From: a virus | IMG/VR virus record: IMGVR_UViG_3300031963_000033 | Location: 1 to 64,000 of that record | DNA: 64,000 nt | Reading direction: 5' to 3' (one strand) | In this document: piece by piece, positions 42,949-64,000 of the stretch | Layout: each line of letters starts with the position of its first letter | How positions within the stretch are numbered: position 1 is the stretch's first letter | The notes under the pieces: generated by a model | What the model was told of the DNA's origin: nothing | Seen by the model: the letters and a program-made list of their open reading frames with translations, nothing else | The model's database searches: none | Position numbers and translations under genes: made by a program

Positions 42949-45900
42949 ATGGCCAGAATATATTCACAAGCTGCACAAACAGCAGCTTCAGGATCCCCTC
43001 TAACTGCATACAGTAGTCGTACTTCCGTAAGTGTTAGTGTTACGGCGGGTAAACGCTATGCGATATTCTGGTCAGCAATAATGAGTCATAGTGCGTTAAC
43101 TTCTCGTGCGCGCGTTCGACTACAAAACGTTACTAATGGAGTAACATTACAGCAATTTGAATTTGAACCACAAGACTTAACGGACAGAATGAGTGCAGTG
43201 GATGTAAACGTATTTACTGCTTCATCTACTACAACAATTGAATTTGCTATACAATGGAGTGCATCCGCCGGTACTGCTACCATTTCTGACGCGTATATTA
43301 ATGTGTTAGAATTAGATGATGCTGACGTTTCTTCATATGATAGCACACAAATTGCTACAACAAATGCCGTAGCTACTCCAATAGATTCTATTAATATTCC
43401 TGCTGGCGAATGGTTTGTGTTTGGATCGTGTAACGTCAATACTCCACGAACGGCACAAGCAGCGGATGATATGGTTGTACAATTGTCTGACGGCACAAAC
43501 ACCTATATGGTACGAACACAGTATTATGCAAAAGATACATTAGGAATAACACCATATTTTGCAATCGTAACGGCTTCTCTTGGTGCAACAACAACGTTTT
43601 CACTAGAACATAGCTCACCAAACGGACAAAATATTGTCAATCAATATCGAACATTATTAGCATTAGACAGGTCTAAATTTGCAGAAACGTATGCCGCGGT
43701 CAGTGAATCTGCACAAATAGACTCTACAAGTGCCGGTGCACCAACCGCCATAATAACATATACGCCAACTATTGCAAACACAGGCAATCATTTAGTGGTG
43801 GGTACGTGGACGACAAAAATTAGCGCAACTAACTCATCAGTCTTTTCTCACTTTGGTACTTCAACTACGGAACCTGGTCAATATACAGCAACCCGCCAAC
43901 CACTCCGTGAAGCATCCGTTAATAATATTGACGAATTTGCACACGGATGGACGGACGTTGAATCATTAACTGCGGGGTCGATTACAAAAGTCATCGCATG
44001 GCGTCCAGAAGCAAACGTAAATGCGACAATTTCTGATGCAGCCATTGTTATTATGGATTTGGATGGTGCCGTTGCTGCACCGAGTCCAACGCCAACTACA
44101 ACACCAACACCAACACCAACACCGTCTATTACTGTAACACCATCTATTACCACTACACCAAGTATAACTGTTACCCCTAGTATTACTACAACGCCTAGTA
44201 TTACAACAACGCCTAGTATTACCACCACCCCAAGTATTACGCCATCTATTACGACCACACCGTCTATTACTACTACACCGAGTGTTACTACAACGCCGAG
44301 TATTACTAGAACTCCAAGTATTACCACTACGCCTTCTATTACCACTACACCATCTATTACTGTAACACCGTCTATCACAACAACGCCGTCAATTACTATT
44401 ACGCCAAGTATAACACCATCTATTACAGTCACACCATCTATTACCACAACGCCGAGTATTACTACCACGCCGAGTATTACGCCAAGTATTACTACAACAC
44501 CGTCTATTACTACCACGCCTAGTATTACTACTACCCCAAGTGTCACACCTTCCATTACCACAACACCAAGTATTACGACTACTCCGAGTATTACTACAAC
44601 ACCCAGCGTTACTAATACACCGTCTATTACTAGAACTCCAAGTATTACTACTACGCCTTCTATTACCACTACTCCAAGTATTACGACTACCCCAAGTATT
44701 ACTGTAACGCCATCTATTACTAGAACGCCATCTATTACTACAACGCCTAGTATTACTACTACACCAAGTGTCACACCTTCCATTACCACTACACCATCTA
44801 TTACCACTACACCATCTATTACTACAACCCCAAGTATTACTACTACCCCAAGTATTACTACTACCCCAAGTATTACTACTACCCCAAGTATCACCACAAC
44901 ACCAAGTATTACACCCAGTATTACTACTACACCATCTATTACTACAACGCCAAGTATCACTACCACTCCTAGTGTCACGCCAAGTATTACCGTTACGCCA
45001 TCTATTACCACTACACCAAGTATTACTACTACTCCGTCAATTACAACTACTCCGAGTATTACCACAACACCGTCTATTACGGTAACGCCTTCTATTACCA
45101 CTACGCCGTCAATTACCACTACTCCAAGTGTCACGCCATCTATTACCACCACGCCTAGTATTACTACTACACCTAGCGTCACGCCTAGTATTACTACTAC
45201 GCCAAGCGTTACAACTACTCCAAGCGTTACGCCATCAATAACCACTACGCCGAGTATTACTACTACACCATCTGTTACCACTACGCCGAGTATTACTACT
45301 ACCCCAAGTATTACTACTACGCCGTCAATTACTACCACACCAAGTATAACACCATCGGTTACAGTTACACCATCTATTACAGTCACACCATCTATTACAA
45401 CAACACCATCGGTCACTGCTACGCCATCGGTTACCGTTACGCCTTCTATTACTGCTACGCCATCTGTTACTAGAACACCTAGCGTTACACCATCAATAAC
45501 GGTAACACCAAGTATAACAACTACGCCAAGTATTACTACTACGCCAAGTATCACGCCAAGTATTACTACTACACCATCTGTTACTACTACGCCGTCTATT
45601 ACTACTACTCCAAGTATTACGCCGTCGGTTACAATTACGCCAAGTATTACTACAACACCGAGTATCACACCTTCTATTACTACAACACCATCTGTTACGG
45701 CTACGCCAAGTATTACTACAACGCCATCTATCACCACAACTCCAAGTGTAACAGTTACACCAAGTATTACAGCTTCACCTGGTGTATCTGTAACTCCATC
45801 AATAACTGTAACTCCATCAATAACCACAACACCTTCTATTACACCAAGTATTACAGTAAGTCCTAGTATTACAGCAACCCCTAGTGTTACTGTAACTCCT

Positions 45901-48021
45901 TCGGCTACAACAACACCATCTATTACAACAACGCCTTCTATTACCACTACGCCAAGTATTACTACTACCCCAAGTATTACTACTACGCCGTCAATTACTA
46001 CCACACCAAGTATAACAACTACGCCATCTATTACTACTACGCCTAGTATAACTGTTACCCCAAGTATTACTACTACGCCTAGTATTACCACAACGCCTTC
46101 TATTACCGCAACACCATCTATTACTGTTACGCCAAGTATTACTACTACCCCAAGTATTACTACTACGCCGAGTATAACAACGACCCCAAGTGTCACACCT
46201 AGTATAACAACTACGCCAAGTATTACTACTACGCCAAGTATCACACCAAGTATTACAACTACGCCAAGCGTTACAACTACGCCAAGTATTACAACTACGC
46301 CAAGTATTACTAGAACTCCAAGTATTACAACTACGCCAAGCGTTACAACTACGCCAAGCGTTACAACTACGCCAAGCGTTACACCATCAATAACCACTAC
46401 GCCATCTATTACCACTACCCCGAGTATTACTACTACCCCAAGTATTACTACTACCCCAAGTATTACTACAACGCCAAGTATTACTAGAACGCCGTCTATT
46501 ACTACTACACCAAGTGTTACTCCATCTGTTACTACAACGCCTAGTGTTACACCATCCATCACCAATACGCCATCTATTACCACCACACCAAGTGTTACAC
46601 CAAGTGTTACTATTACGCCAAGTATTACTACAACGCCTAGTGTTACACCATCCATCACCAATACGCCGTCTGTTACAACCACGCCTAGTATTACTACAAC
46701 ACCGTCTGTTACAACCACGCCTAGTATTACTACAACACCGTCTATCACGGCAACGCCATCTATTACCACAACGCCAAGTATTACCACAACGCCAAGTATT
46801 ACAACTACGCCAAGTATTACTAGAACGCCGAGTATCACTACAACACCAGGATCAACACCATCTGTTACCGTTACACCGAGTATCACTACCACGCCGTCTA
46901 TTACCACTACACCTAGTGTCACTAGAACACCTTCTATTACTACTACCCCAAGTATTACTACTACGCCGTCTATTACCACAACGCCAAGTATTACTAGAAC
47001 GCCCAGTATCACGCCATCTATTACCACTACGCCGTCTGTTACTTCTACACCCAGTATCACTACTACACCGTCTGTTACCAGAACACCATCAATCACAACT
47101 ACGCCAAGTATTACGCCAAGTATTACTACTACGCCGTCAATTACTACCACACCAAGTATTACTACTACGCCATCTATTACCACTACGCCGTCTATTACTA
47201 CTACTCCAAGTATTACTAGAACGCCTAGTGTCACTAGAACGCCAAGTATCACGCCATCTATTACCACTACGCCGTCTATTACCACAACGCCAAGTATTAC
47301 TAGAACGCCATCTATTACGACTACCCCAAGTATTACTAGAACAACAAGTGTTACACCTAGTATTACTACAACGCCTTCAATTACTACTACCCCAAGTATT
47401 ACTACTACCCCAAGTATTACTACTACCCCAAGTATTACTAGAACGCCTTCTATCACAACTACACCAAGTATCACTAGAACATCAGGCGTTACACCTAGTG
47501 TTACTACAACTCCGTCTATTACACCATCAATTACCGTCAGTATTACCCCATCAATAACTAAAACCCCATCGATAACACCGACTCGTAGTGTAACAAAAAC
47601 ACCAACGGTTACGCCAACTATTACACCGACTCGTTCAACTACCCCTACAGTAACACCGAGTGTAACAATAACACCTTCTATAACTCCATCAATTACCCCG
47701 TCTGAAGTAAAAGTTAGTGATATAGCAATTTATGGTATAGAATTACGTTATAAAGTTGGAATGGTGGAACATTCATACATTGGTGGTGTAAATCAATCTT
47801 TACCTGTAAAAGACCAAGGTAATATTTGGGTGTACGGAGAACAATTATTATACAGTGATTATAGTGGGGTGACAAGAGTAATTACTGGTGCTAGAGTACA
47901 AATAACCAATCGTAAAGCAGGTGAAATATTTATCAAAAATGGACGTTTGTATTGGGTAATTGGTGATGATATTACAAATTATGAGTTCGCATTATCTAAC
48001 GAATCTTCATTTAGTTATTAA
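42949..48021 (+). CDS. Giant mucin-like P-S-I-T repeat fibre (1690 aa)
   Basis: Three parts. Residues 1-376 are globular and beta-rich (two similar jelly-roll-like halves with TAGxxY and STTTIEFAIQWSAS strands), probably for attachment or receptor binding. Residues about 377-1584 are an uninterrupted array of P-S-[IV]-T-x-T hexapeptides and PSIT tetrapeptides, x being mostly T, V, R or A, with a few breaks (ASPGVSVTPS, TTPGSTPSVT). Residues 1585-1690 are a folded tail without Cys (VSDIAIYGIELRYKVG...). About 1200 repeat residues would span a very long extended stalk. Dense Thr/Ser next to Pro suggests O-glycosylation. The transcript starts upstream in the fibre operon. Confidence 0.8.
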   Translation: MARIYSQAAQTAASGSPLTAYSSRTSVSVSVTAGKRYAIFWSAIMSHSALTSRARVRLQNVTNGVTLQQFEFEPQDLTDRMSAVDVNVFTASSTTTIEFAIQWSASAGTATISDAYINVLELDDADVSSYDSTQIATTNAVATPIDSINIPAGEWFVFGSCNVNTPRTAQAADDMVVQLSDGTNTYMVRTQYYAKDTLGITPYFAIVTASLGATTTFSLEHSSPNGQNIVNQYRTLLALDRSKFAETYAAVSESAQIDSTSAGAPTAIITYTPTIANTGNHLVVGTWTTKISATNSSVFSHFGTSTTEPGQYTATRQPLREASVNNIDEFAHGWTDVESLTAGSITKVIAWRPEANVNATISDAAIVIMDLDGAVAAPSPTPTTTPTPTPTPSITVTPSITTTPSITVTPSITTTPSITTTPSITTTPSITPSITTTPSITTTPSVTTTPSITRTPSITTTPSITTTPSITVTPSITTTPSITITPSITPSITVTPSITTTPSITTTPSITPSITTTPSITTTPSITTTPSVTPSITTTPSITTTPSITTTPSVTNTPSITRTPSITTTPSITTTPSITTTPSITVTPSITRTPSITTTPSITTTPSVTPSITTTPSITTTPSITTTPSITTTPSITTTPSITTTPSITTTPSITPSITTTPSITTTPSITTTPSVTPSITVTPSITTTPSITTTPSITTTPSITTTPSITVTPSITTTPSITTTPSVTPSITTTPSITTTPSVTPSITTTPSVTTTPSVTPSITTTPSITTTPSVTTTPSITTTPSITTTPSITTTPSITPSVTVTPSITVTPSITTTPSVTATPSVTVTPSITATPSVTRTPSVTPSITVTPSITTTPSITTTPSITPSITTTPSVTTTPSITTTPSITPSVTITPSITTTPSITPSITTTPSVTATPSITTTPSITTTPSVTVTPSITASPGVSVTPSITVTPSITTTPSITPSITVSPSITATPSVTVTPSATTTPSITTTPSITTTPSITTTPSITTTPSITTTPSITTTPSITTTPSITVTPSITTTPSITTTPSITATPSITVTPSITTTPSITTTPSITTTPSVTPSITTTPSITTTPSITPSITTTPSVTTTPSITTTPSITRTPSITTTPSVTTTPSVTTTPSVTPSITTTPSITTTPSITTTPSITTTPSITTTPSITRTPSITTTPSVTPSVTTTPSVTPSITNTPSITTTPSVTPSVTITPSITTTPSVTPSITNTPSVTTTPSITTTPSVTTTPSITTTPSITATPSITTTPSITTTPSITTTPSITRTPSITTTPGSTPSVTVTPSITTTPSITTTPSVTRTPSITTTPSITTTPSITTTPSITRTPSITPSITTTPSVTSTPSITTTPSVTRTPSITTTPSITPSITTTPSITTTPSITTTPSITTTPSITTTPSITRTPSVTRTPSITPSITTTPSITTTPSITRTPSITTTPSITRTTSVTPSITTTPSITTTPSITTTPSITTTPSITRTPSITTTPSITRTSGVTPSVTTTPSITPSITVSITPSITKTPSITPTRSVTKTPTVTPTITPTRSTTPTVTPSVTITPSITPSITPSEVKVSDIAIYGIELRYKVGMVEHSYIGGVNQSLPVKDQGNIWVYGEQLLYSDYSGVTRVITGARVQITNRKAGEIFIKNGRLYWVIGDDITNYEFALSNESSFSY
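44077..47703 (+). repeat. P-S-[IV]-T-x-T coding repeat array 2
   Basis: About 3.6 kb of 18-bp and 12-bp units encoding the hexapeptide and tetrapeptide. Codons vary between units at third positions, but short blocks (actactaccccaagtatt) recur exactly, within this array and in the other two. Likely hot spots for homologous recombination. Confidence 0.95.
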
Positions 48022-48027
48022 AATTCA

Positions 48028-48035
48028 TATTTATA
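48028..48035 (+). promoter_or_regulatory. Candidate late promoter core TATTTATA in a palindrome
   Basis: Exact TATTTATA ending 26 bp before the GTG start of the tip-domain gene. It lies inside a 7-bp perfect inverted repeat, TTCATAT-TT-ATATGAA (48024-48039). Confidence 0.6.
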
Positions 48036-48061
48036 TGAAATGTATAACGTGAGGTGTATTC

Positions 48062-48577
48062 GTGGCTGAGACAAGACTTTCTGGCGCATTAATAAGAACT
48101 GGAACGAATATCGGACCTGTGAACAAACTATCAGTTGGAGATGTGACCACACCAAGTGGTTCTCTTCATGTTGGCGGTACGACAGTTCTACAACAAATAT
48201 TAGAAAAAAATACTATTGCTGCGACTGCGGCAACGGGGACAATTAATTTTAATGTATTATCACAAGGGGTGTTGTATTATACAACCAACTCATCGGGTAA
48301 TTGGACTCTAAACTTCACAGGTGACATTTCAACTACATTAAATAATATAATGTATATTGGGCAAAGTTTGAGTTTGGCGTTTTTAGTAACAAACGGTTCT
48401 CCCGCATTTTATGTCACATCTCATACAATTGATGGTGCTTCTGTAACACCAAAATGGCAAGGTGGTGCTGTTCCCTCAGCGGGTAACACAAATTGTATTG
48501 ATGTGTATTCGTATGTTATAATAAAAACAGCAAATGCTACATTTACTGTGTTAGCATCAGTAATACCTTTCGTTTAA
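48062..48577 (+). CDS. Free-standing fibre tip/cap domain protein
   Basis: Starts with GTG at 48062 (gtggctgagacaaga), preceded by GTGAGGTG. The 171-aa product is almost entirely the domain that forms the C-terminus of the 3348 fibre (residues 40-171 against 743-874): QQILEK, TAATGTINF, NWTLNF, LAFLVTNGS, SHTIDG and TPKWQGGAVPS are shared. As at 5972, a repeat fibre follows, here after 9 bp. Probably a cap, chaperone or tip that pairs with the repeat fibre. Confidence 0.75.
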   Translation: MAETRLSGALIRTGTNIGPVNKLSVGDVTTPSGSLHVGGTTVLQQILEKNTIAATAATGTINFNVLSQGVLYYTTNSSGNWTLNFTGDISTTLNNIMYIGQSLSLAFLVTNGSPAFYVTSHTIDGASVTPKWQGGAVPSAGNTNCIDVYSYVIIKTANATFTVLASVIPFV

Positions 48578-48586
48578 TAAGATTGT

Positions 48587-53236: not shown

Positions 53237-53269
53237 AAATAACGGTAACTTAAAATTTAGAGAATAAAT

Positions 53270-53701
53270 ATGAATACATTTCAAGATTTACAATTATTGG
53301 TTGATGCTAACGCAATAATCCAAAATTATAACTGTGTGGATAATACAACGTGTGATGCTTTAAAATCACTCACCACGGGAAACGGATTATATCGACAAAT
53401 TCATTATTTAATTGATAAACAAACACCTTTTAGAGTGTTATGGTTGCAATACGACACCACAGATGATGAGTTTATATTAAATTTATCGTGTTTTGATAAA
53501 GATAAAAACGTTATAACTCCTTTAGATTTTACGAATAGGGTTGAAGGCCCATCAAAAACATTAGTACAATCGTATATTAATACCAATCCAATAAAATGGA
53601 TAAAAACGGTACCAAATGAATATAGTCTCATGTATACGACTCAAAATGCTAATATAGGACAGAAACTACAAAATACTTTACCAATAATTAAAAAGCTGTA
53701 G
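53270..53701 (+). CDS. Hypothetical protein between fibre and sugar island
   Basis: A 143-aa soluble protein (MNTFQDLQLLVDANAI...LPIIKKL) with mixed alpha/beta character. It has three Cys, one of them in NCVDNTTCD. No family recognised. It is preceded by a 33-bp gap and followed by a weak hairpin and a promoter-like octamer, so it is the last gene of the fibre transcript. It could be an assembly partner for the repeat fibre, on position alone. Confidence 0.55.
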   Translation: MNTFQDLQLLVDANAIIQNYNCVDNTTCDALKSLTTGNGLYRQIHYLIDKQTPFRVLWLQYDTTDDEFILNLSCFDKDKNVITPLDFTNRVEGPSKTLVQSYINTNPIKWIKTVPNEYSLMYTTQNANIGQKLQNTLPIIKKL

Positions 53702-53706
53702 TAAAC

Positions 53707-53740
53707 CTTGACTTGTTAAGTCGAGTAGATTATATTTTTC
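53707..53740 (+). terminator. Weak hairpin terminator before the sugar island
   Basis: CTTGACTT and AAGTCGAG form an 8-bp stem with one G-T pair and a 3-base loop, followed by ATATTTTTC. It lies 6 bp after the preceding stop and upstream of a promoter-like octamer. Confidence 0.5.
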
Positions 53741-53753
53741 TATTGACGTAAAC

Positions 53754-53761
53754 TATTTATA
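53754..53761 (+). promoter_or_regulatory. Candidate late promoter core TATTTATA before sugar island
   Basis: Exact TATTTATA ending 31 bp before the ATG at 53793. It would give the glycosylation genes their own late transcript, timed with virion proteins. A TTGACG lies only 5 bp upstream, too close for a sigma70-type pair. Confidence 0.6.
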
Positions 53762-53792
53762 CTTGTGTACAGGTTATATAAATGAGGGTTTT

Positions 53793-55112
53793 ATGACTAC
53801 AAAAAAGAAAGTTGTTAAAAAGACTGTAAGAAATCAGAGTATAAAAAAGACTGCTGGACGAGTTAAAAAGAAAGTACCTACTATTTTCGTTCAAATTGCA
53901 GCATACCGTGATCCAGAATTATTACACACTCTTCGCAGTTTATTACAAAACGCAGATCATCCAGAAAATTTGACTATTGCCATTGGTTGGCAGCATTCTC
54001 CCTATGAGAAGTGGGATAATTTAGATGAGTTCAAAGATGACACAAGATTTAAGATAATAGATATAGATTATCGTAAATCTAAAGGTGTTTGCTGGATGCG
54101 TGAAAAAATACAGAAATTGTATAATGGCGAAACTTATACACTACAACTAGATTCACATCATAGATTTACCGAACATTGGGATACGCAAGTAATAGAAATG
54201 TTAGAAGGATTGCGTAGTAAAGGACACACAAAACCACTGCTGAGTTCATACTTACCAGATTTTAATCCAGTAACAGGACCTGAAGGTGAATTACCTGCTC
54301 CGTGGATTATGGAATTTGACAGATTTGGTCCAGAAGGGCCAGTACACTTCTTACCACATACAATAGACGATTGGAGAGAACTGACATCACCAGTTCCATC
54401 AAGATTCATGTCTGGTCATTTTATATTTGCTGACGGAATATTTGTTAAAGAAGTTCCGTATGACCCAAATTATTATTTTCACGGTGAAGAAATTGATTTA
54501 TCTGTTCGTTCTTATATGGCGGGGTACGATCTATTCGCACCACACAGAACTATTGCTTGGCACGAATACTATAGAGAAGGAAAGAGTAAACATTGGGAGG
54601 ACCATACAAATTGGGCATCAGAAGATAGAATCTCACACGCATATCATCGCAAAATGTACGGTATTGAATCGAAGAACAGAAAATTAAAAGATAATGTACG
54701 AACACTTCAGGAATATGAAATGTATGCTGGATTGGAGTTTTCTACAAAACGTGCTCATACGATGACCATACAAAAAATACGCCCTCCAGTTTCTTTAGAT
54801 GTAGAATCCCATACACAAGGATTGGTTCCTTATCATAAAGTATGTATTGATGTGTATAAAGGATCATTACCAGAGAAGGATTATAATTTCTGGGTAGTTG
54901 CGTTTACAAATAAAGATGGAATAGAATTTCATAGACATGATGCTGATGAAAATGAAATAAATATGGCTATGAGTGTACCTTATGAAGCAGATAAGTTTGT
55001 GCATATATGGAGAGCATTCTATTCTGATCAACCAGCTGATGGGTGGATCGTGTGGCCTCATAGTAAGAGTAATGGGTGGTGTGAAAGATTAACTGGTAAA
55101 TTTGGACGATAA
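53793..55112 (+). CDS. Polypeptide GlcNAc-transferase-like glycosyltransferase 1
   Basis: I start at ATG 53793, preceded by GAGGG (439 aa). After a basic N-terminal extension (about 30 residues), IFVQIAAYRDPELLHTL opens a GT-A domain matching the GlcNAc family (Skp1 Gnt1 and trypanosome polypeptide alpha-GlcNAc-transferases). Further motifs: IGWQHSP, a DxH-type metal site LDSHHRF (D120, H122), then FHGEEIDLSVRSYMAGYDLF and a Trp-rich C-terminus (WIVWPHSKSNGWCERL). Known members add GlcNAc to hydroxyproline or Thr of proteins. Expected substrate here: the Thr-rich phage fibres just upstream. Donor and acceptor are inferred. Confidence 0.75.
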   Translation: MTTKKKVVKKTVRNQSIKKTAGRVKKKVPTIFVQIAAYRDPELLHTLRSLLQNADHPENLTIAIGWQHSPYEKWDNLDEFKDDTRFKIIDIDYRKSKGVCWMREKIQKLYNGETYTLQLDSHHRFTEHWDTQVIEMLEGLRSKGHTKPLLSSYLPDFNPVTGPEGELPAPWIMEFDRFGPEGPVHFLPHTIDDWRELTSPVPSRFMSGHFIFADGIFVKEVPYDPNYYFHGEEIDLSVRSYMAGYDLFAPHRTIAWHEYYREGKSKHWEDHTNWASEDRISHAYHRKMYGIESKNRKLKDNVRTLQEYEMYAGLEFSTKRAHTMTIQKIRPPVSLDVESHTQGLVPYHKVCIDVYKGSLPEKDYNFWVVAFTNKDGIEFHRHDADENEINMAMSVPYEADKFVHIWRAFYSDQPADGWIVWPHSKSNGWCERLTGKFGR

Positions 55113-55113
55113 T

Positions 55114-56355
55114 ATGAGAAAAAATAAAAATATTTTCGTTCAAATTGCAGCATACCGTGATCCAGAATTACTACCCACTATTCGTGATTGTATATCCAAT
55201 GCGAAGAACCCGGAAAATCTTCGATTCTGTATTGCGTGGCAGCATTCTAACGAAGATGTCTGGGACAATTTAGATGAGTTTAAAAACGATTCACGATTTA
55301 TAATTCTAGATATTCCACATCTACAGACAAAAGGAACGTGTTGGGCACGGTATCAAATCCAACAACATTGGAACGGAGAAGCATATACCCTACAATTAGA
55401 TTCACATCATCGTTTTGCTAAAAATTGGGATAGTATGCTAATTAAGATGGTCAAAGATTTACAAAAAGCAGGATATAAAAAACCATTATTGACTGCATAT
55501 ATGTCAAGTTATGAACCACATAACGATCCCACGGGACGAGCACCAGACCCGTGGTTCTTAACATTTGACAGATTCACTCCAGCTGGAGCAGTATTTTTTA
55601 TACCCGCTGTTATTCCTGATTGGAAAAATCGTAAATTACCATATCCAAGTAGATTTTATTCCGCTCATTTTGGATTCACACTTGGACAATTTTGTAAAGA
55701 AGTTCCTCACGATCCGAACTACTTGTTTCACGGTGAGGAAATTTCTATTGCCGCACGAGCGTATACGTGGGGATATGATTTGTTTGCGGCACATAAACCT
55801 GTAGTGTGGCACGAATATTCACGAAATCACCGCCCTCGTAAATCGTGGGACGACATATCAGATTGGACTAATTGGGATAATCAATCGTTGGCACGTAACA
55901 GAAGATTGTTAAACGTGGATAACGAGAATGACCCTAATGAAGATTTTGGAGAATTTGGATTTGGTACACAACGTACACTACAGCAGTACGAAGAATATGC
56001 GGGAATACAATTTTCTACAAGAAGTATACAAAAACATACGTTAGAACATCGTGAACCACCCAACCCGCCAAATCAACCATTCTTTAGAATTTTTAAACAT
56101 TGTATTGATTTACCATATCAATATGTACCGTATAATGACTATGATTTTTGGGCGGTAGCATTTGAAGATGAATTTGGTAACGAGATATATAGACACGATG
56201 CTACAGAAGATGATATCATACAAATGAAGAATGATCCTGACGGATATTGTAAATTGTGGAGACAGTTTCACGCAACGGCAAAACCCGCCAGATGGATTGT
56301 TTGGCCACATTCTAAATCACACGGATGGTGTGATCGATTGGTTGGAGATATCTAA
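55114..56355 (+). CDS. Polypeptide GlcNAc-transferase-like glycosyltransferase 2
   Basis: ATG at 55114 is chosen over an upstream TTG (413 aa). A tandem paralogue of the previous gene: IFVQIAAYRDPELLPTI, IAWQHSNEDVWDNLDEF, LQLDSHHRF, FHGEEISIAARAYTWGYDLF and WIVWPHSKSHGWCDRL are aligned one to one. It lacks the basic N-terminal extension. A 40-bp stretch (55131-55170) is identical to 53882-53921, which suggests recent duplication or conversion, whereas the rest has diverged. The two copies may act on different sites or extend each other's product. Confidence 0.75.
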   Translation: MRKNKNIFVQIAAYRDPELLPTIRDCISNAKNPENLRFCIAWQHSNEDVWDNLDEFKNDSRFIILDIPHLQTKGTCWARYQIQQHWNGEAYTLQLDSHHRFAKNWDSMLIKMVKDLQKAGYKKPLLTAYMSSYEPHNDPTGRAPDPWFLTFDRFTPAGAVFFIPAVIPDWKNRKLPYPSRFYSAHFGFTLGQFCKEVPHDPNYLFHGEEISIAARAYTWGYDLFAAHKPVVWHEYSRNHRPRKSWDDISDWTNWDNQSLARNRRLLNVDNENDPNEDFGEFGFGTQRTLQQYEEYAGIQFSTRSIQKHTLEHREPPNPPNQPFFRIFKHCIDLPYQYVPYNDYDFWAVAFEDEFGNEIYRHDATEDDIIQMKNDPDGYCKLWRQFHATAKPARWIVWPHSKSHGWCDRLVGDI

Positions 56356-56356
56356 A

Positions 56357-57316
56357 ATGCAGCACAAAACAAAATTACGTATTCATAATTCCTGCAACAA
56401 GTACACTAGGTATTATAGATATTATAATTTTTTTTGGGATGCTTTGACTTACGAGTTAGGTAAAACGTTTGAAATTGAAGAAAACAGATATTTCGAACAT
56501 GCCCATACAATACCAATGCCAATAAAACTCAAAAAGGCAAAATGTGATTTAGAAATTTATGAATCAGACTACGTTATAGAAAACGTAGAATCGGGTGACT
56601 TCTATATATTGACAGCGTGTGATGTATTGACCGGACACGTAATAGCTGAAAGAGAGAATCCACACTTAAAAAAAGTATTGGTGGCACAGTACATAGACCA
56701 AATTATTAAACACAACGTAGAAAATCCACATACCAGTAAATATTCCCCATGGATTTATTTTCAAAGTGGATTGACTAATTTAGAAGAATATTTTTATAAA
56801 AGAAAGTTAATACTCAATTTTAATAAAAAATTATACTTTCGTGGTAAAATTGATGACCGTCCTATTTTAAAGTACTTTTCTCCATCTATCTTGGAATCAG
56901 GCCAAACAATTAATCAAAATGATTATTTCAACGAAGCAATTAATCACGAAATCGGATTATCCATAGGCGGTGTTGGTGAGTTGTGTTATAGAGATATTGA
57001 ATATATGGGAATGGGTATACCGTTTTTGCGTTTTGAATTCGCTAGCAGTCTTAAAGAACCATTAATTCCAAATGTACACTATATTTCAGTAGATAGGCCG
57101 AATGACTTACCAACAGAACAACGTACTTGTGGTGTTGGATTAGATAGGATGGGATTAGAACATCACGCAAAGTTAATAGAGCAACGTTATTTAGAAGTAA
57201 TAGATGACAAAGAATTTTTAAGATTTGTATCTACTAATGCAAGAGAGTATTATGAAAAATATCTTATGTATCCGAACAATGTAAGACACACAATTAATTG
57301 GTTGGGGTTAGAATAA
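56357..57316 (+). CDS. Probable glycosyltransferase, family unassigned
   Basis: I use ATG 56357, 1 bp after the previous stop (319 aa). The C-terminal half contains GVGELCYRDIEYMGMGIPFLRFEF, outlined here as a Gly-rich turn, an E-x-x-x-x-G step and a hydrophobic strand, which is the donor-site style of GT-B enzymes such as CAP10/GT90-like proteins. KLYFRGKIDDR before it also fits that group. The N-terminal half is unfamiliar. Context among sugar genes supports the call; the sugar is unknown. Confidence 0.55.
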   Translation: MQHKTKLRIHNSCNKYTRYYRYYNFFWDALTYELGKTFEIEENRYFEHAHTIPMPIKLKKAKCDLEIYESDYVIENVESGDFYILTACDVLTGHVIAERENPHLKKVLVAQYIDQIIKHNVENPHTSKYSPWIYFQSGLTNLEEYFYKRKLILNFNKKLYFRGKIDDRPILKYFSPSILESGQTINQNDYFNEAINHEIGLSIGGVGELCYRDIEYMGMGIPFLRFEFASSLKEPLIPNVHYISVDRPNDLPTEQRTCGVGLDRMGLEHHAKLIEQRYLEVIDDKEFLRFVSTNAREYYEKYLMYPNNVRHTINWLGLE

Positions 57317-57317
57317 T

Positions 57318-58235
57318 ATGAGAATTTTAGTAACAGGTGGAACTGGGTTGGTTGGAGAAAACTTGAAACAATCTCTTCCTGACGCATATTATGTTTCTTC
57401 AAAGGATTACGATTTAACTAGTTACGAAGATACTGCGGCGTTGTTTTATTACTATCGACCAACGCACGTTATCCATTTAGCTTCTAAAGTAGGTGGCATA
57501 ACGTATAATATGAAATACCCAGTAGAGTTTTTTGAAGATAATGTGTTGATGAACGCAAATGTACTAAACTGTGCTCATAAATTTAAAGTGCAAAACTTAA
57601 TTGGAATGTTGTCCACTTGTATATTCCCAGATGATGTGACGTATCCTCTAACGCCTGATAAAATTCATAAGGGTGAACCACATCATAGCAACTTTGGATA
57701 TGCTTATGCAAAACGCATGTTAGAAGTTCAAATACGAACATATAATAAACAATACGGAACAGATTGGACCACGATTATCCCAACAAATATTTATGGCAAA
57801 TATGATCAATTTAATCTTGAAAAATCTCATGTAATTCCTGCGTTAATTCATAAGATGTATTTGAATAAAATAAATAATCAACCATTGATGAATATGATGG
57901 GTACTGGATTGGCAGAACGGGAATTTATATACGCTGAAGATTTAGGGAAAATATTAGCGTGGGCTATAGAAAATTACACAACACCAACACCATTAATAGT
58001 TTCATCAGAAACATCATATAGTATAAAATCGGTAGCAGAGCTAATTTCTAATGCTATAGGTTATGAGGGACAATTACTATTTGACGGAGATGTGTCAAAA
58101 GACGGACAATACAGAAAGCCAAGCGATTCCAATGTGGTTAGAACACTTTGTCCAATAGAATATACTCCTCTAGATGTTGGTATAAAAAATACCGTAGAGT
58201 GGTTTGTAGAAAATTACACTAACTGTAGGAAGTAA
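57318..58235 (+). CDS. GDP-L-fucose synthase-like epimerase/reductase
   Basis: An extended short-chain dehydrogenase of 305 aa. GGTGLVGE at 7-14 binds NADP. HLASKVGGI and the long NxxYPVEFFEDNVLMNANVL-like segment are diagnostic of GDP-fucose synthase (Fcl/WcaG). Catalytic residues visible: S99-x-C101 in LSTCIFP and Y128-x3-K132 in YAYAK. It should convert GDP-4-keto-6-deoxymannose to GDP-L-fucose. No GDP-mannose dehydratase is present in the window, so the precursor comes from the host or from a gene beyond the window. A GT10 enzyme downstream would use the product. Confidence 0.85.
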   Translation: MRILVTGGTGLVGENLKQSLPDAYYVSSKDYDLTSYEDTAALFYYYRPTHVIHLASKVGGITYNMKYPVEFFEDNVLMNANVLNCAHKFKVQNLIGMLSTCIFPDDVTYPLTPDKIHKGEPHHSNFGYAYAKRMLEVQIRTYNKQYGTDWTTIIPTNIYGKYDQFNLEKSHVIPALIHKMYLNKINNQPLMNMMGTGLAEREFIYAEDLGKILAWAIENYTTPTPLIVSSETSYSIKSVAELISNAIGYEGQLLFDGDVSKDGQYRKPSDSNVVRTLCPIEYTPLDVGIKNTVEWFVENYTNCRK

Positions 58236-58238
58236 AAT

Positions 58239-59036
58239 ATGAAAATACTAGTATCTACTATATGTTTTATTCAACCCAATAAAATTAAGGATGGTGCAGA
58301 GATATATGCAACGTTTGCCAATCGTTTGATAGATTCTACGATGGAAAAAACGAATTTTGATATTCGAGTAGCAACAAACAGACCAGAACTGTTTTCCGAC
58401 GCATTATTAAAATATGGTGACAGAGTTTCTTTATTTGTAGACACGTTGGAAGATAAACAGGTTTGGGTTGGTGCATTCAATCAATTACTAAAATTTTTAG
58501 CACTAAAAGATGTACCATCGAAATACGATTATGTTCTGTATTTAGATTGCGATTCATCATTCTTTAAAACAGTTGATAATGAATTGGTAACAGAAACAAT
58601 TACCAAACTAGAAGAAAACAACCAAAACGGCATGGTAAATAGATCTGGTACGGGATACTTCCTGCAACAGTTAACAGAACATTGTTCAGGCATAGCAAAT
58701 ATGTTTAGCGCCAAATTTAATTTTTATAACTTAAACTTGAATACCGTACCACCGGAGTGGGAAGATGCTCCAATGCCATGTGAACACATACTGTTCTTAA
58801 AGAATGAAGATAATAAATTACAGATTATGTCAGATAAAATTGCTGAATTTAATGAAAAATTAGAATCTCAAATTGGACAACCGTACATCGCATGTAGTCC
58901 TGATATGGAAGCATTCGAGTTGGGTATTGGGGTAAAAGTTGCTGGTTATAAATTAGCAGAAATTGATTCATATATTCACCACGATGTATTTTGTGTAAAA
59001 TATAACGGTAGTAATTGGGAAAAAGCAAAATTATAA
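58239..59036 (+). CDS. GT-A glycosyltransferase-like protein
   Basis: 265 aa. Rossmann-like start MKILVSTICF and a DxD-type metal motif D103-C-D105 in VLYLDCDSSFF. The region following (GTGYFLQQL, MPCEHILFLKNED) resembles retaining GT8-like or related folds. The spacing from the N-terminus to DxD (about 100 residues) is normal for GT-A enzymes. It starts 3 bp after the fucose synthase gene. Donor and acceptor are unknown. Confidence 0.6.
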   Translation: MKILVSTICFIQPNKIKDGAEIYATFANRLIDSTMEKTNFDIRVATNRPELFSDALLKYGDRVSLFVDTLEDKQVWVGAFNQLLKFLALKDVPSKYDYVLYLDCDSSFFKTVDNELVTETITKLEENNQNGMVNRSGTGYFLQQLTEHCSGIANMFSAKFNFYNLNLNTVPPEWEDAPMPCEHILFLKNEDNKLQIMSDKIAEFNEKLESQIGQPYIACSPDMEAFELGIGVKVAGYKLAEIDSYIHHDVFCVKYNGSNWEKAKL

Positions 59037-59049
59037 AATGAGATAAATT

Positions 59050-59649
59050 ATGTTAAAAACCGATGGAAATGATTATTATGTAATCAAGGATGCATGTGTT
59101 GCTGTAAAGGAAATTGAAGGTTTGGTATGTGAATTAGGATCGTATCAAGGTGGTGGACTCAAATTACTTATGGAAACATTTTCGGAAATGAATCAACGAG
59201 ATAGAATATTTCTTTCGGTTGATCCATACGGAGACATTCCATATCACGATATAAATGGTATACACAGTGCGGGATATACAAATAATGTAAAAAATATGTT
59301 TCTACGAGACATACATCAATTGTCTTATGAATTGAATACATACTTTTTGTTTTTCAATATGACAGACACACAGTTTTTCAAAAGATTTTCTGATGGTATT
59401 CCTGTATACATTAACGAAGAACGTATTTATAACAAATATGCGTTAGTAATTATTGACGGACCACATGAAGTGAATATCGTTAAGGATGAATTTGATTTCT
59501 TTAAAAGTAGAATAGCTACAAATGGTATAATAGTTTTTGATGATGTTGAACAGTACCCACATGAAACTATTCACGAATATATTTTGCAGAATGGATTTGA
59601 AACGTTCAAATCCACAGGATATAAGCACGCATATAAAAAAGTTGTATGA
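59050..59649 (+). CDS. Class I methyltransferase (TylF/Methyltransf_24-like)
   Basis: 199 aa. SAM site VCELGSYQGGGLKLL near residues 27-41; second-strand acidic FLSVDPYGD; later YALVIIDGPHEVNIVKDEFDFF and IATNGIIVFDDV, the pattern of sugar O-methyltransferases such as TylF and MycE. The Asp in IIDGPH and FDDV can bind metal. The last 4 bp overlap the next gene. In this context, methylation of a sugar on the phage glycan is likely. Confidence 0.7.
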   Translation: MLKTDGNDYYVIKDACVAVKEIEGLVCELGSYQGGGLKLLMETFSEMNQRDRIFLSVDPYGDIPYHDINGIHSAGYTNNVKNMFLRDIHQLSYELNTYFLFFNMTDTQFFKRFSDGIPVYINEERIYNKYALVIIDGPHEVNIVKDEFDFFKSRIATNGIIVFDDVEQYPHETIHEYILQNGFETFKSTGYKHAYKKVV

Positions 59650-60470
59650 AAATTGCACTTCTGCTTTCAGGTCAACCACGATTATATGAGGAAGTTTTTC
59701 CACACATAAAAAAACATATATTAGACGTATATGATTGTGATGTATATGCACATGCGTGGTGGGACGAAGCGGAATCACACGATGTAGTACATCGTTCACC
59801 CTGGTCACAGTCTTATAAGTTTGACGTAGATAAACAATTTCCTATTAAGTTTAATAACTTATACAATCCCAAAAAGTTTCAAATAGATAAACCATTATTT
59901 GATAGCACGGAAGATTCGCAGAATATTTTCATTGAGTCATTGAAAAAATTGTATCCGACTACAAATGGGTGTGAAGTTTTTTATGAAGATAAAAGTATGT
60001 TAGGTCCAATTCATAAATTTATTTCAATCGAAAAAGTATTTAATATGGTGAATTGGGATGAAAATTATGATTGGATTGTTTTCTGGAGATATGATTTACA
60101 GCCAGATGTATTTCCCGATTTAACTATCTTAAATGAAGAAGTATTATACGCATATACCGATTATTGGTGTTCTTGGTGTGATAGAGATGATAGAGCGTGG
60201 CCAGATAATCATGGATTTATAGATACTGGATTTATACTACATCCTAATTGTAAACATGCTTTAAATATTAAAAATTTTTACTTTGATGAGTGTATGAAAA
60301 ATAATTTATTGTGTAGTGAATCACACAAATGGAAGCACAAACCAATTCCAGAAACAGTCTGGTCGTTGAACGTGTGGTACAATAAAATAAAAACAGTTAT
60401 GTTACCATCTAAAGACTTTTCAGCAAGTTTAATTCGACGAATTGATGAGTACGGAGACTTAAGACCATGA
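59646..60470 (+). CDS. Glycosyltransferase-like protein (ALLLSGQPR type)
   Basis: A 274-aa protein that begins KIALLLSGQPRLYEE and continues CDVYAHAWWDE. I recognise this start from sugar-cluster proteins in phages and chloroviruses. The middle holds WIVFWRYDLQPDVFPD (a possible R-x-D metal/nucleotide site) and a Trp/Asp-rich segment. No textbook DxD is visible, so activity is inferred from family resemblance and context. ATGA overlap with both neighbours (4 bp). Confidence 0.6.
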   Translation: MKIALLLSGQPRLYEEVFPHIKKHILDVYDCDVYAHAWWDEAESHDVVHRSPWSQSYKFDVDKQFPIKFNNLYNPKKFQIDKPLFDSTEDSQNIFIESLKKLYPTTNGCEVFYEDKSMLGPIHKFISIEKVFNMVNWDENYDWIVFWRYDLQPDVFPDLTILNEEVLYAYTDYWCSWCDRDDRAWPDNHGFIDTGFILHPNCKHALNIKNFYFDECMKNNLLCSESHKWKHKPIPETVWSLNVWYNKIKTVMLPSKDFSASLIRRIDEYGDLRP

Positions 60471-61141
60471 ACGAACAATATATATTTTTTGATGTAGGAG
60501 CAAATAATGGTGATAGTTCTGTGCCAATTATACGCAAAAATCCAGATGCTAGAGTATATGCATTTGAACCTGTTCCTGCTTTAGTGAATTACATAAAACA
60601 ACAAACAAAAGATTATCCTAACTATGTTGTAACACAAACTGCTGTTTCTGATTTTAATGGAACGGCATCATTTCGTATATCAGGCGAACCATCAAAAAAA
60701 GAAATTCAAACATTTGTAGATTTAGACTTTCATAAATTCGTGGAACATAATTGGCATGGATGTAGTTCTTTACTAGAATTGTCGGATAATGTATTGGATT
60801 CTTGGTACGGAAGAACGGATATGTTAGTTCTGGAAGAAATAGAAGTTAATGTCATTAGATTGGATTCTTTTATACAACAAAATAACATAGACCATATTGA
60901 TTTTCTTTGGGTAGATACACAAGGATCAGATTTAAATGTATTGAAAGGTTTGGGAGACTACATTCATATAGTAAATTCTGGAACGGTAGAAGCTGCAAAC
61001 AAACCAGACATTTTATATAAAAATCAAAATTCTAAAGAAGAAACAATTGAGTATTTAAAACAATGTGGATTTAACGATATACGAGTGTCCACGAATGACC
61101 CAGCAGATAATGAAGTAAATATTTCTTTTTATAGAGGATAA
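60467..61141 (+). CDS. FkbM-family methyltransferase
   Basis: 224 aa. The SAM-binding start IFFDVGANNGDSS, then RVYAFEPVPALVNYI, the beta-strand TAVSDFNGTASF, and later VIRLDSFIQQNNIDHIDFLWVDTQGSD are the four signature blocks of FkbM methyltransferases. Members O-methylate sugars or polyketides. It overlaps the preceding gene by 4 bp and precedes a fucosyltransferase, so O-methylation of fucose is a reasonable but untested guess. Confidence 0.85.
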   Translation: MNEQYIFFDVGANNGDSSVPIIRKNPDARVYAFEPVPALVNYIKQQTKDYPNYVVTQTAVSDFNGTASFRISGEPSKKEIQTFVDLDFHKFVEHNWHGCSSLLELSDNVLDSWYGRTDMLVLEEIEVNVIRLDSFIQQNNIDHIDFLWVDTQGSDLNVLKGLGDYIHIVNSGTVEAANKPDILYKNQNSKEETIEYLKQCGFNDIRVSTNDPADNEVNISFYRG

Positions 61142-61144
61142 GTT

Positions 61145-62026
61145 GTGAAAATTAAATTTCTTCCAAACTGGTGTTCTTCTGAACAAGGTACAAAACGATT
61201 ATTTGACCAATTTTATATAGGACAAGATTTAACAAATGTAGAATTTGTTCACGGTGATGAATTTGACGTTATTTTTTATTGCGGATATGAAACGCAAGTC
61301 GTACCGTCTGGAATAAAAAAATATATTTTTAATATGGAACCGTGTTGGTCGGGAAACGTACAAAGAAACAATTCGGGTATTGATGCTACAATCTTCGCTC
61401 AAGATAAAAACATATTTGATGATTCGACTAGAGTAGTTGAGTGTCCAACCTATATGTTCTACGGAGCTGGTGGCGAAAATTGGACTGTAGAAGATACCAA
61501 AATTGATTACGAAAAAACAAAAAATATCAGTTGTATATTGTCGGATAAAAGAAACATTTACAATATATCTTCATGTCTATACGATAAACGAGATGATGTA
61601 GCTCAATACTTGATGCGTTCGAGTGTATCGGTAGATGTATTCAGAGATTGTGATTCTCCAAATTGCGTTGGTGGACTCCCAAGAAAAATTGAAGGATTAA
61701 AACCATATCGATTTAGTATTGGTATAGAAAACAGTAGAGAACAAAACTACATTTCAGAAAAATTTTATGATGCAATTTTAACAAACACCATCCCAATATA
61801 CTACGGTGCAAAAAATATCAAAGAGGTTTTTCCTGAAAATGGGTATTTTGTAATAGATGATTTAGAAGATTTAGATGGCATTGCCAACCTACTAAAACAT
61901 ATAAACGAAAACGCAGAAGAACTTTATCGACAAATGTTACCAGAAGCACTAAAAATTAAACAGAGATTTTTTAATGAATTTAATCTCATGACAAAAATTA
62001 TAGAAGTAGCGGAGAGTGGTATATGA
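61145..62026 (+). CDS. GT10 fucosyltransferase-like protein
   Basis: Starts with GTG at 61145. 293 aa, short for the family, as in bacterial members. The C-terminal donor-site motif of GT10 alpha-1,3/4-fucosyltransferases is clear at about residues 187-222: YRFSIGIENSREQNYISEKF then AILTNTIPIYYGAKNI (E-N-S, Y-I-x-E-K, N-T-I-P-I-x-x-G). It should transfer fucose from GDP-fucose, made by the 57318 enzyme, probably to a GlcNAc-containing acceptor. It overlaps the next gene by 4 bp. Confidence 0.82.
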   Translation: MKIKFLPNWCSSEQGTKRLFDQFYIGQDLTNVEFVHGDEFDVIFYCGYETQVVPSGIKKYIFNMEPCWSGNVQRNNSGIDATIFAQDKNIFDDSTRVVECPTYMFYGAGGENWTVEDTKIDYEKTKNISCILSDKRNIYNISSCLYDKRDDVAQYLMRSSVSVDVFRDCDSPNCVGGLPRKIEGLKPYRFSIGIENSREQNYISEKFYDAILTNTIPIYYGAKNIKEVFPENGYFVIDDLEDLDGIANLLKHINENAEELYRQMLPEALKIKQRFFNEFNLMTKIIEVAESGI

Positions 62027-63027
62027 AAACTATAGGATTTTGGGATAACAATCTAGGATTGCGTGGTACTAGTGTTGCTATGTTTCTTTATGCAAAATAT
62101 AACGAAGAAATTTTAGGAAATCGTAGTGTCATATATTCACACAGTGCTGTTAGAGAAGATATAGGGGATAAGTCTACACTAGATAAATTCGAAAAACAGT
62201 TTCCAGGTCGTGTACATCTAGTCGGTAGAGAATTGGGTGGATTGTACGATGTTCAGACGCATATGTTGAGAGAATATAACGCTGAATATTTTTATTATAT
62301 TAAAGCCGGACAACGTGATGGTGGTATGTTAGATGAAAATTATATCAAAAATTTAATACACGCAGTATTTTTGTTTAATGAACCACACGGACATCGATAT
62401 ATGTATGTGTCTGATTGGTTGGCTGGGACGATGGGATATTCACCTAGAGAAAATCACGCGGTACCTCATATCGTTGAACCGTTGCCTGTAGTTGACGAAG
62501 ATTTAAGAGATGAGCTAGGTATACCAAAAACAGCGACGGTGTTTGGGTGTTATGGTGGTCCAACTGAATTTAATATTGATTTTGTACATATGGTGATGGA
62601 TAGAGTCTTGTCAGAACGTAATGACATTTATTTTATTTTTATGAATATACCAAGTACTCATCGTGGTATAACACACACGCATGAAAATTATAGATGGTTG
62701 CCTGGTACGTGGGATTTAACTCGAAAGGCTAAGTTTGTTAAAACATGCGATGCTATGTTACACGCCAGAGGAGGTGGAGAAACGTTCGGAATGGCTGTGG
62801 CAGAATTTAGTAGCGCAAATAAACCTGTAATAACATACGGATTATCGGGAGAACGATGTCATCTGGAAATTTTAGGAGACAAGGGATTAATTTATAACAG
62901 TTATGAAGAGCTTTATGACATTATTAATAACCTTGGTACATATTTAAAGTATGAGGATTGGAACTGCTACAGAAATTTCTCCGCAGAAATTATAATGGAC
63001 AGATTCAATAAAAACTTTTTAAATTGA
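62023..63027 (+). CDS. GT4-like (GT-B) glycosyltransferase
   Basis: 334 aa. The N-terminus has LGLRGTSVAMFLYAKY, a glycosyltransferase loop. The C-terminal domain has CDAMLHARGGGETFGMAVAEF, the E-x7-E-type donor site of GT4 enzymes (GGETFGMAVAE), followed by NKPVITYGLSGERCHLEILG. Fold is retaining GT-B; donor sugar unknown. Four-bp overlap with the preceding fucosyltransferase suggests coupled translation. Confidence 0.75.
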   Translation: MKTIGFWDNNLGLRGTSVAMFLYAKYNEEILGNRSVIYSHSAVREDIGDKSTLDKFEKQFPGRVHLVGRELGGLYDVQTHMLREYNAEYFYYIKAGQRDGGMLDENYIKNLIHAVFLFNEPHGHRYMYVSDWLAGTMGYSPRENHAVPHIVEPLPVVDEDLRDELGIPKTATVFGCYGGPTEFNIDFVHMVMDRVLSERNDIYFIFMNIPSTHRGITHTHENYRWLPGTWDLTRKAKFVKTCDAMLHARGGGETFGMAVAEFSSANKPVITYGLSGERCHLEILGDKGLIYNSYEELYDIINNLGTYLKYEDWNCYRNFSAEIIMDRFNKNFLN

Positions 63028-63037
63028 GATAATAGAT

Positions 63038-63862
63038 ATGACAAAGGTTATCGTAACAATGACAACGTTACCTCGAAGATTATTTGAGGTTGATTCTGAA
63101 TGGGGAATTCGTCCGTCTTTAAAGACGATATTAGAACAATCAAACGCTGACTACGAAGTACATTTAAATGTTCCATACGAACACAGAGGTCAGCAAATAA
63201 CAGTTCCCGATTGGTTAAGAGAATGGCAATCAACATACAAACATTTAAAAGTGTTTAGATGTAAAGATTACGGTCCAATAACAAAGATATATCCTACACT
63301 AAAACGTGTAACTGATCCGAATACTATTCTTATAACGGTAGACGATGATCTTGCATATAACGATGGATTTGTCCAAGCTCACATAGACGCTCAAACGAAG
63401 TATAAAGAATGTGCCATAGGATATGCTGGAATGGGTTCTATTAATGAATCACTTCCGGCTGACAATAGAGGCGTTCATCCAACCGGTGGACAACATTTCG
63501 TTACATCGTTAGCGGAAGATATAAGAGTGAGAATGTTAGAGGGATATAAAACTGTGTCTTATTTAAGATCATTTTTTTCTGAAGATTTAAAGGATTTAGA
63601 AAACTTTATGGCACAACATTGGAATGATGATATTGTGTTGTCTGCTTATATGGGATATAAAAATATAAAAAAGATAGTGTTGAAGTGTGAAAATTGTAAT
63701 GGAGACAATTCACCACGCGTAGAAACATTCCCAGTAATAAGAATGGTTCCTATTACGTCCGATATTCACGGTTGTAATGCATTTAGAACCAATCAATCTA
63801 TTCAAAAAAATATGGAAGATGTGAGTAATATGTGGTATAAACTTGGATATCTGGAGAGATAA
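63038..63862 (+). CDS. GT-A glycosyltransferase
   Basis: 274 aa. It begins VIVTMTTLPRRLFE, then ADYEVHLNVPYEHRG, GPITKIYPTLKRV and the metal site D102-D-D104 in LITVDDDLAYND, with YGPxTKxYP before the DDD as in a family of bacterial and viral GT-A enzymes. The C-terminal part has WNDDIVLSAYM, a likely catalytic Asp region. Substrates unknown. Starts 10 bp after the GT4 gene. Confidence 0.7.
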   Translation: MTKVIVTMTTLPRRLFEVDSEWGIRPSLKTILEQSNADYEVHLNVPYEHRGQQITVPDWLREWQSTYKHLKVFRCKDYGPITKIYPTLKRVTDPNTILITVDDDLAYNDGFVQAHIDAQTKYKECAIGYAGMGSINESLPADNRGVHPTGGQHFVTSLAEDIRVRMLEGYKTVSYLRSFFSEDLKDLENFMAQHWNDDIVLSAYMGYKNIKKIVLKCENCNGDNSPRVETFPVIRMVPITSDIHGCNAFRTNQSIQKNMEDVSNMWYKLGYLER

Positions 63863-63865
63863 AAT

Positions 63866-64000
63866 ATGTCTAATATTATTGAAGCATTAAATGTATACAA
63901 TGTGTTTTCACCTAAAATGCGTTTGGGTGATAACAGAGATGGTGGTTATATAATTAACGAAACAATTGCAGAAGTTTCAAATAAACTTATTACTGTTGGA
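63866..64000 (+). CDS. N-terminal fragment of a methyltransferase-like protein (3' truncated by window)
   Basis: ATG at 63866, 3 bp after the previous stop, open to the window end (45 residues). The string MRLGDNRDGGYIINETI matches the R-x-G-x-x-x-D-G-G-Y start of FkbM/Methyltransf_21-like proteins. Its catalytic core lies beyond the window, so family is tentative. It shows that the sugar island continues. Confidence 0.5.
   Translation, partial: MSNIIEALNVYNVFSPKMRLGDNRDGGYIINETIAEVSNKLITVG

Follow-up and report, generated by a model that had tools for sequence, protein, structure and literature searches.

Giant Pro/Thr/Ser repeat genes linked to GT60 glycosyltransferases suggest mucin-type O-glycosylation of phage fibres

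The first 64,000 bases (here called the window) of the 114,529-base virus record IMGVR_UViG_3300031963_000033 carry two giant genes for Pro/Thr/Ser repeat proteins, followed by an island of sugar and methyl enzyme genes that opens with two glycosyltransferases of family 60 (GT60, PF11397). The best reading, which is considered probable, is that the phage encodes a mucin-type O-glycosylation system which acts in the cytosol on its own fibres. Since the repeat/GT60 pairing recurs in many related and unrelated phages, these viruses probably cover their fibres with sugars themselves. Reports of glycosylated virion proteins are rare for phages, and mucin-type glycosylation is regarded as eukaryotic.

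The initial annotation, made from the letters alone, described two fibres of 1690 and 1549 amino acids (aa) built largely of P-S-[IV]-T-x-T. Both genes are indeed open frames; segments rich in Pro, Ser, Thr, Ile, and Val make up 72% of the first protein and 83% of the second, and the motif PS[IV]Txx occurs 200 and 197 times, respectively. Repeat protein 1 has an N-terminal part of about 365 residues without a Pfam match, an alternating x-[S/T] stalk (728 Ser/Thr in 1233 residues), and a short C-terminal tip. Repeat protein 2 is laid out as a stalk (727 Ser/Thr in 1292 residues), an inner domain, a second Pro-rich run, and a Cys-rich tip. Together with two further repeat genes, the second of which lies just right of the window, 2,002 Ser/Thr are found inside Pro/Thr-rich segments. 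The unit PSITTT is present in repeat gene 1 in 108 identical copies with 68 DNA spellings (Ser as 60 AGY and 48 TCN); since identical hexapeptides use so many codon versions, it is the peptide rather than the DNA of the repeats that has been kept. Opposite the repeats, and mirroring them, lie two large antisense open reading frames (ORFs), 43878-47474 and 48574-52344, which were not counted as genes. Repeat proteins 2, 3, and 4 each finish in a short Cys-rich module of similar kind, which may be a binding tip.

Repeat units vary between phages (PSITTT, PTVT, PTQT, PTNT, PTAT, and others), and the alternation is common to all. In the 60 further Pro/Thr-rich proteins near GT60 for which it was computed (50 are listed individually), Ser/Thr at lag 2 exceeds that in shuffled sequences in all 60 and is depleted at lag 1 in 58; for the four repeat proteins of the window phage the lag-2 z value is 14 to 22. 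An extended chain of this kind would put every Ser/Thr on one face. Mucins as usually described follow no such every-second-residue rule, unlike the phage repeats.

The giant repeat genes and the island are confirmed as real and not an assembly artefact. Positions 45102-64000 are gap-free in four sibling contigs, three at 100% and one at 99.97% identity, of which two are equally long and possibly one assembly; the first 814 bp of repeat gene 1 are covered by none of the four.

The island had been placed within 560 bp of the fibres and said to open with two N-acetylglucosamine (GlcNAc) transferase paralogues, and this was borne out: repeat gene 2 and the first GT60 gene are 526 bp apart, with a 143-aa ORF between them, and the paralogues match PF11397 with E values of 1.6e-65 and 2e-71. 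Co-occurrence of the two gene types had been named beforehand as one of the points on which the proposal could fail, and on this point it held. Two viral scans yielded 121 loci with a GT60 relative, which clustering at 90% identity reduced to 79 non-redundant phage loci, 47 of them with a Pro/Thr-rich gene. The threshold for Pro/Thr-rich is the analyst's own choice and differs between the counts: 15/43 loci under a strict rule and 51/78, including two copies of the window phage, under a looser one. Within the 79 loci, a Pro/Thr-rich gene immediately precedes 28 of the 99 GT60 genes, versus 9 of the 746 other genes that code for 200 aa or more (Fisher odds ratio 32, p 1e-20); none of 20,000 within-locus permutations reached 28 (mean 5.8). 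In 26 of these 28 cases the two genes are separated by 20-130 bp, and in the remaining two by 305-322 bp. Under the harshest control, in which only upstream genes were considered, 25/54 Pro/Thr-rich genes and 30/210 others were adjacent (odds ratio 5.2, p 2e-6).

A reverse scan with a DNA pattern for P-T-x-T-P-T-x-T-P, in which GT60 was not used, gave 80 loci in 79 records and agrees with this result. PF11397 was found in 0/22 records without a Pro/Thr-rich ORF, 1/21 with a short one, and 10/36 with a long one (p 0.002); for records of at least 30 kb the counts were 0/10, 1/7, and 10/24 (p 0.014). Of 26 records scored for both traits, four carry GT60 and show 7-265 alternation matches, and the 22 without it show at most three; three of the four were picked for having GT60, and the threshold of five is post hoc. 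The fourth, G112, has 7 matches versus 5 for a reversed control pattern, in two short runs at least 20 kb from its GT60 gene. A putative mucin-type Pro/Thr/Ser repeat acceptor is in this way tied to an initiating polypeptide transferase by genetic linkage only.

Several observations weigh against glycosylation of the fibres. The pair in the window itself is outside the strict 28 cases because of the intervening 143-aa ORF, and for 32/79 GT60 loci the DNA covered includes no Pro/Thr-rich gene. The loci are also related: at 70% GT60 identity they form 20 clusters, 10 of which have an adjacent Pro/Thr-rich gene, and at 65% they form 10 clusters, four of which do. GT60 is also found in bacterial genomes, where only 17/80 loci include a Pro/Thr-rich ORF, and chance composition accounts for some of these. 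In the reverse scan, 26/36 long-repeat records show no PF11397 in the DNA covered, whether as fragments, through use of other enzymes, or for want of a link. The last count also fits the possibility that GT60 glycosylates other virion proteins, such as capsid or tail, and that the Pro/Thr-rich linkers are neighbours rather than substrate; several GT60 genes do follow non-repeat tail proteins, and glycosylation of capsid proteins has been proposed for mycobacteriophages (PMC11256854, in the portion available). This alternative is considered improbable, since adjacency stays specific in the upstream-only comparison, the alternation rule is common to unrelated repeat sequences, and the terminase relatives without GT60 (phages Mel-JY01 and immuto) are also without repeats. 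Finally, the case for glycosylation in the window phage is one of genes and models, and the acceptor, sugar, linkage, glycan, order of steps, and benefit are deduced.

GT60 genes on bacterial genome contigs (L370 and L402) lie directly beside Pro/Thr-rich ORFs, so the pairing may reach beyond phages. Viral contigs L277 and L295 carry arrays of adjoining Pro/Thr-rich proteins of up to 2355 aa; no PF11397 was seen in the record of the former, and that of the latter has it.

The PF11397 domains score 222.3 and 241.8 bits in the window and 109.1 and 169 bits outside it (cut-off 21). Q98, D100, S101, H102, R104, G211, E212, and E213 are invariant across 47 phage GT60 sequences and presumably form the metal and sugar-nucleotide site. 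The model of enzyme b has a GT-A fold (predicted local distance difference test, pLDDT, 93.2), and its closest solved folds are the animal and Toxoplasma polypeptide N-acetylgalactosamine (GalNAc) transferases of family GT27, which take ranks 1-31 in Foldseek and ranks 1-29 in VIA (Z 22.1-19.1, 261-289 aligned residues, root-mean-square deviation 3.5-3.9) before the next fold drops to Z 17.0. Unlike the phage enzymes, GT27 members have a lectin domain and a secretory setting, and identity between the two is 11-17%; a similar fold also does not establish a similar substrate, which is a further point against the reading. A sequence search of the PDB found no relative of GT60 or of the 923-aa fusion protein encoded right of the window.

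According to the available portions of the reports, the acceptor of characterised GT60 enzymes is either Thr in mucin-like peptides or a hydroxyproline in Skp1 (PMC3769586, PMC6939170). The Trypanosoma cruzi enzyme, from the same Pfam/CAZy-type family (PMC6939170), adds alpha-GlcNAc to Thr of KPPTTTTTTTTKPP, a Thr-rich, Pro-containing acceptor used in vitro (PMC3769586). That system is eukaryotic and sits in the Golgi, where galactose and sialic acid follow (PMC3769586), whereas the phage has no predicted membrane segment, a putative HtrL-type extension, and a strict x-[S/T] alternation. The Skp1 pathway also uses a cytosolic GT60 enzyme, Gnt1, and the phage has in addition a hydroxyproline-arabinosyltransferase-like (HPAT-like) domain; however, Gnt1 acts on one hydroxyproline in one protein (PMC6939170), and in the phage a prolyl hydroxylase is not established.

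The cassette could instead hypermodify phage DNA by placing sugars or carbamoyl groups on a hydroxylated base, with the repeat genes as bystanders. In TET/TAGT phages, glycosyltransferases and carbamoyltransferases build on such a base. Two carbamoyltransferase-like genes lie in the island right of the window (the first by Pfam and PHROG, the second by similar sequence only), the GT60 domain of the fusion protein weakly matches PF20691 TAGT (21.8 bits, cut-off 27.5), and the GT60 gene of the cultured phage XacN1 adjoins a carbamoyltransferase not far from the DNA polymerase. For these three reasons DNA hypermodification keeps some weight. In addition, 24476-25948 encodes a Mom-like protein for DNA modification whose N-terminal part is kinase-like (phrog_1384, E 6.2e-30), and therefore the phage probably modifies its own DNA by a separate route. 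Overall this explanation is judged unlikely: Tet_JBP (PF12851) was found in 0/33 GT60 records, though no control genome gave a match either, GT60 sits beside Pro/Thr-rich genes, the same fusion domain scores 109.1 bits for PF11397, and the GT60 fold is nearest to polypeptide transferases.

The most general partner of GT60 is a two-domain HtrL/YibB relative, which is present in 64/78 other GT60 loci, often a few genes downstream of GT60 or directly upstream. The model of one relative (L206; pLDDT 90.4, predicted template modelling score 0.56) shows two GT-A domains. In fold comparison the N-terminal domain is near GT6 blood-group transferases and the C-terminal domain near B4GALNT1, POMGNT2-type, and GnT-I enzymes, all at similar Z values of about 13-15; the entry at rank 4 bears the title human protein O-mannose beta-1,2-N-acetylglucosaminyltransferase. 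Compared over its whole length by Foldseek, the model matches LH3, mimivirus R699, and LARGE1. Other partners are less frequent among the 78 loci: carbamoyltransferase in 10, GT10 relatives in seven, a GDP-fucose-synthase-like gene in one, and relatives of FkbM in five and seven. A GT25-type gene is directly 3' of GT60 in nine loci (L213:11223-11954 and family relatives).

No membrane-like segment (19-residue window above 1.6) was found in 21 proteins tested, 19 of them from the island. Therefore, the enzymes probably work in the cytosol, where their targets would be phage proteins that have just been synthesised, and the system is not classed as a eukaryotic secretory mucin pathway. The same result bears on the possibility that the enzymes change host surface glycans, as in serotype conversion or superinfection exclusion, the repeats being flexible spacers. 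Lipopolysaccharide loci likewise contain genes of the GT10, GT2, GT25-like, and epimerase kinds, and HtrL/YibB is a bacterial family of unknown function. Serotype-type conversion systems, however, use membrane and lipid-carrier enzymes, and both the tight linkage of GT60 to repeat genes and the lytic T4-like gene set speak for another role, so that this explanation has a low probability.

A scheme for fibre glycosylation can be potentially described as follows. GT60 would recognise extended stretches with Thr or Ser at every second residue and, before or during tail assembly in the cytosol, place a first sugar, most likely an alpha-linked N-acetylhexosamine (GlcNAc by analogy with characterised GT60 enzymes), on many of the approximately 2,000 Thr/Ser of the four repeat proteins. 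The two-domain HtrL/YibB glycosyltransferase would extend this sugar, and accessory enzymes varying by phage would cap the glycan, here by fucose synthesis and transfer, O-methylation, and carbamoylation. The start by GT60 and the extension by HtrL are suggested by family, fold, and conservation, and the caps by family. The dense glycan may keep otherwise disordered chains extended, stiff, hydrated, soluble, and protease-resistant, and may form an outer sugar surface of the particle, with sugar-mediated binding or cloaking as possible consequences. Since fucose and methyl enzymes are rare among the 78 other loci, they look like a phage-specific decoration. The initial annotation is partly supported: its central proposal that the phage O-glycosylates its own fibres is backed by linkage across phages, enzyme fold, and the glycoproteins reported for XacN1, and the fucosylated, methylated glycan that it proposed would be less general.

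A tblastn search of 50,697 phage records found GT60 relatives in three cultured phages only, Xanthomonas phage XacN1 and Stenotrophomonas phages CM1 and RAS14, and again only these three have a near-full-length HtrL relative. GT60, a gene at the carbamoyltransferase position, and HtrL adjoin in XacN1 and RAS14, the middle gene being annotated as carbamoyl transferase in XacN1 only; the XacN1 GT60 and HtrL are ORF334 and ORF330. The XacN1 genome of 384,670 bases has at least 13 Pro/Thr-rich ORFs at approximately 84,000-293,000, and several of them adjoin the gene for the tail sheath; at least two glycoproteins were reported from its proteomic analysis (PMC5852040, available portion). In its gene content XacN1 resembles the window phage. 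It differs in that GT60 is not beside a repeat gene: in both XacN1 and RAS14 it is near DNA-replication genes, which counts against fibre glycosylation, as do two points in the available text on XacN1, where the main text names neither the glycoproteins nor the repeat ORFs and no tail fibres were visible (PMC5852040). That text likewise does not join GT60, repeats, and glycoproteins. Six tandem ORFs of XacN1 (ORF232-ORF237, AP018399.1 124048-133104) all have Pro/Thr-rich segments.

The sugar and methyl enzyme genes of the window (Table 1) form an unbroken run on the plus strand with gaps of at most 61 bp.

Table 1. Repeat genes and glycosylation island of the window phage (L009 coordinates lie right of the window; n/78, loci with relatives among 78 other GT60 loci)
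Feature	Position	Strand	Match or remark
Repeat gene 3, 702 aa	5975..8083	+	593 residues Pro/Thr-rich; Cys-rich C-terminal module
Phage tail assembly chaperone	42591..42935	+	PF16778, E 1.2e-21; directly 5' of repeat gene 1
Repeat gene 1, 1690 aa	42949..48021	+	open frame
171-aa ORF	48062..48577	+	no Pfam match; between repeat genes 1 and 2
Repeat gene 2, 1549 aa	48587..53236	+	open frame
143-aa ORF	53270..53701	+	no Pfam match
GT60 enzyme a	53763..55112	+	PF11397, E 1.6e-65; TTG start
GT60 enzyme b	55102..56355	+	PF11397, E 2e-71; TTG start; modelled
361-aa ORF	56231..57316	+	no Pfam match; 18/78
GDP-L-fucose-synthase-like epimerase	57318..58235	+	Epimerase, E 6.8e-44, above cut-off
265-aa ORF	58239..59036	+	no Pfam or NCBIfam match; 3/78
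Methyltransferase (methyltransferase-24)	59050..59649	+	PF13578, above cut-off
274-aa ORF	59646..60470	+	phrog_13607 (unknown function)
FkbM-type methyltransferase	60467..61141	+	PF05050, above cut-off
GT10 fucosyltransferase-like enzyme	61145..62026	+	PF00852, E 4.5e-16, above cut-off
GT1/GT4-like glycosyltransferase	62023..63027	+	below Pfam cut-off, 22.6 vs 26.4 bits
GT2-like ORF	63038..63862	+	below cut-off; 9/78
Repeat gene 4	L009:4089-6095		just right of window

The listed ATG of the 361-aa ORF overlaps the preceding gene, and the true start is probably later. The earlier assignment of a GT10 fucosyltransferase agrees with its Pfam match. The gene named GDP-fucose synthase is an epimerase whose top NCBIfam match is GDP-L-fucose synthase, at 209.5 bits, below the curated cut-off of 500. 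As for the several GT-A/GT-B enzymes and methyltransferases that had been listed, the methyltransferases stand, and the GT1-type gene at 62023 and the GT2-like gene fall short of their cut-offs.

The whole system is larger than first described: to it belong repeat genes 3 and 4, and the island has a right half beyond the window that carries further sugar and methyl genes, including an HtrL/YibB protein of 618 aa, an epimerase, and methyltransferases. A 923-aa protein (L009:7136-9907) fuses HPAT-like (27.6 bits, cut-off 23.9), O-FucT-like (99.2, cut-off 31.5), and GlcNAc (PF11397; 109.1, cut-off 21) domains, from mainly eukaryotic families. Including this one, the whole island has four PF11397 domains, the fourth in a separate gene. 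A bolder scheme is possible, though rather doubtful: a widespread phage lineage of mucin-type O-glycosylation in which GT60 would glycosylate any extended chain that has Thr/Ser in alternate positions, irrespective of the residues between them, and the HtrL/YibB-type dual transferase would then lengthen the glycan, to which the window phage adds HPAT-like and O-fucosyltransferase-like activities of the 923-aa enzyme, giving stalks that would be plant-extensin-like as well as mucin-like. HPAT was rejected as a general part of the cassette, since among 33 GT60 records it was found only in that of the window and a near-identical sibling.

A 176-aa ORF (L009:14735-15262) was considered as a prolyl hydroxylase and set aside: it has no Pfam or NCBIfam match, PHROGs label it ferrochelatase, a PDB sequence search gave chance matches only, and the viral relatives found are five 100% identical copies, with none in the 78 GT60 loci. 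Its HxD...H motif, suggestive of a 2-oxoglutarate oxygenase, makes it oxygenase-looking in spite of the PHROGs label, and the family is perhaps mislabelled.

In mycobacteriophages, phage-encoded transferases reportedly act on virion proteins, as proposed for the window phage; the enzymes are said to be of other families and the targets capsid or tail proteins without such stalks. Literature searches found no paper joining GT60 with phage, no relevant paper on mucin-like phage fibres, and, judged by title and the start of the abstract, none on this topic among papers on phage glycoproteins; Dictyostelium PTVT repeats, which reportedly carry O-GlcNAc, did not turn up among the papers listed. If fibre glycosylation is true, many uncultured aquatic phages would be covered by dense glycans of their own making, and this would matter for how they bind hosts, are grazed, are recognised, and stay stable as particles. 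Fibre glycosylation would also give a function to the HtrL/YibB family, offer a small set of cytosolic enzymes with which mucin-like polymers could be made in bacteria, and explain the giant Thr/Pro repeat genes of phage contigs, which are usually dismissed as low complexity.

Since matches to terminase, portal, gp23-like capsid, and sheath are present, the window is assigned to a T4-like tailed phage near Immutovirus. Its best cultured terminase relatives are Flavobacterium phage immuto (52% identical) and Microcystis phage Mel-JY01 (51%). Elsewhere in the window, 8122-10689 encodes a protein with a cytidylyltransferase-like domain and a weak RNA-ligase match.
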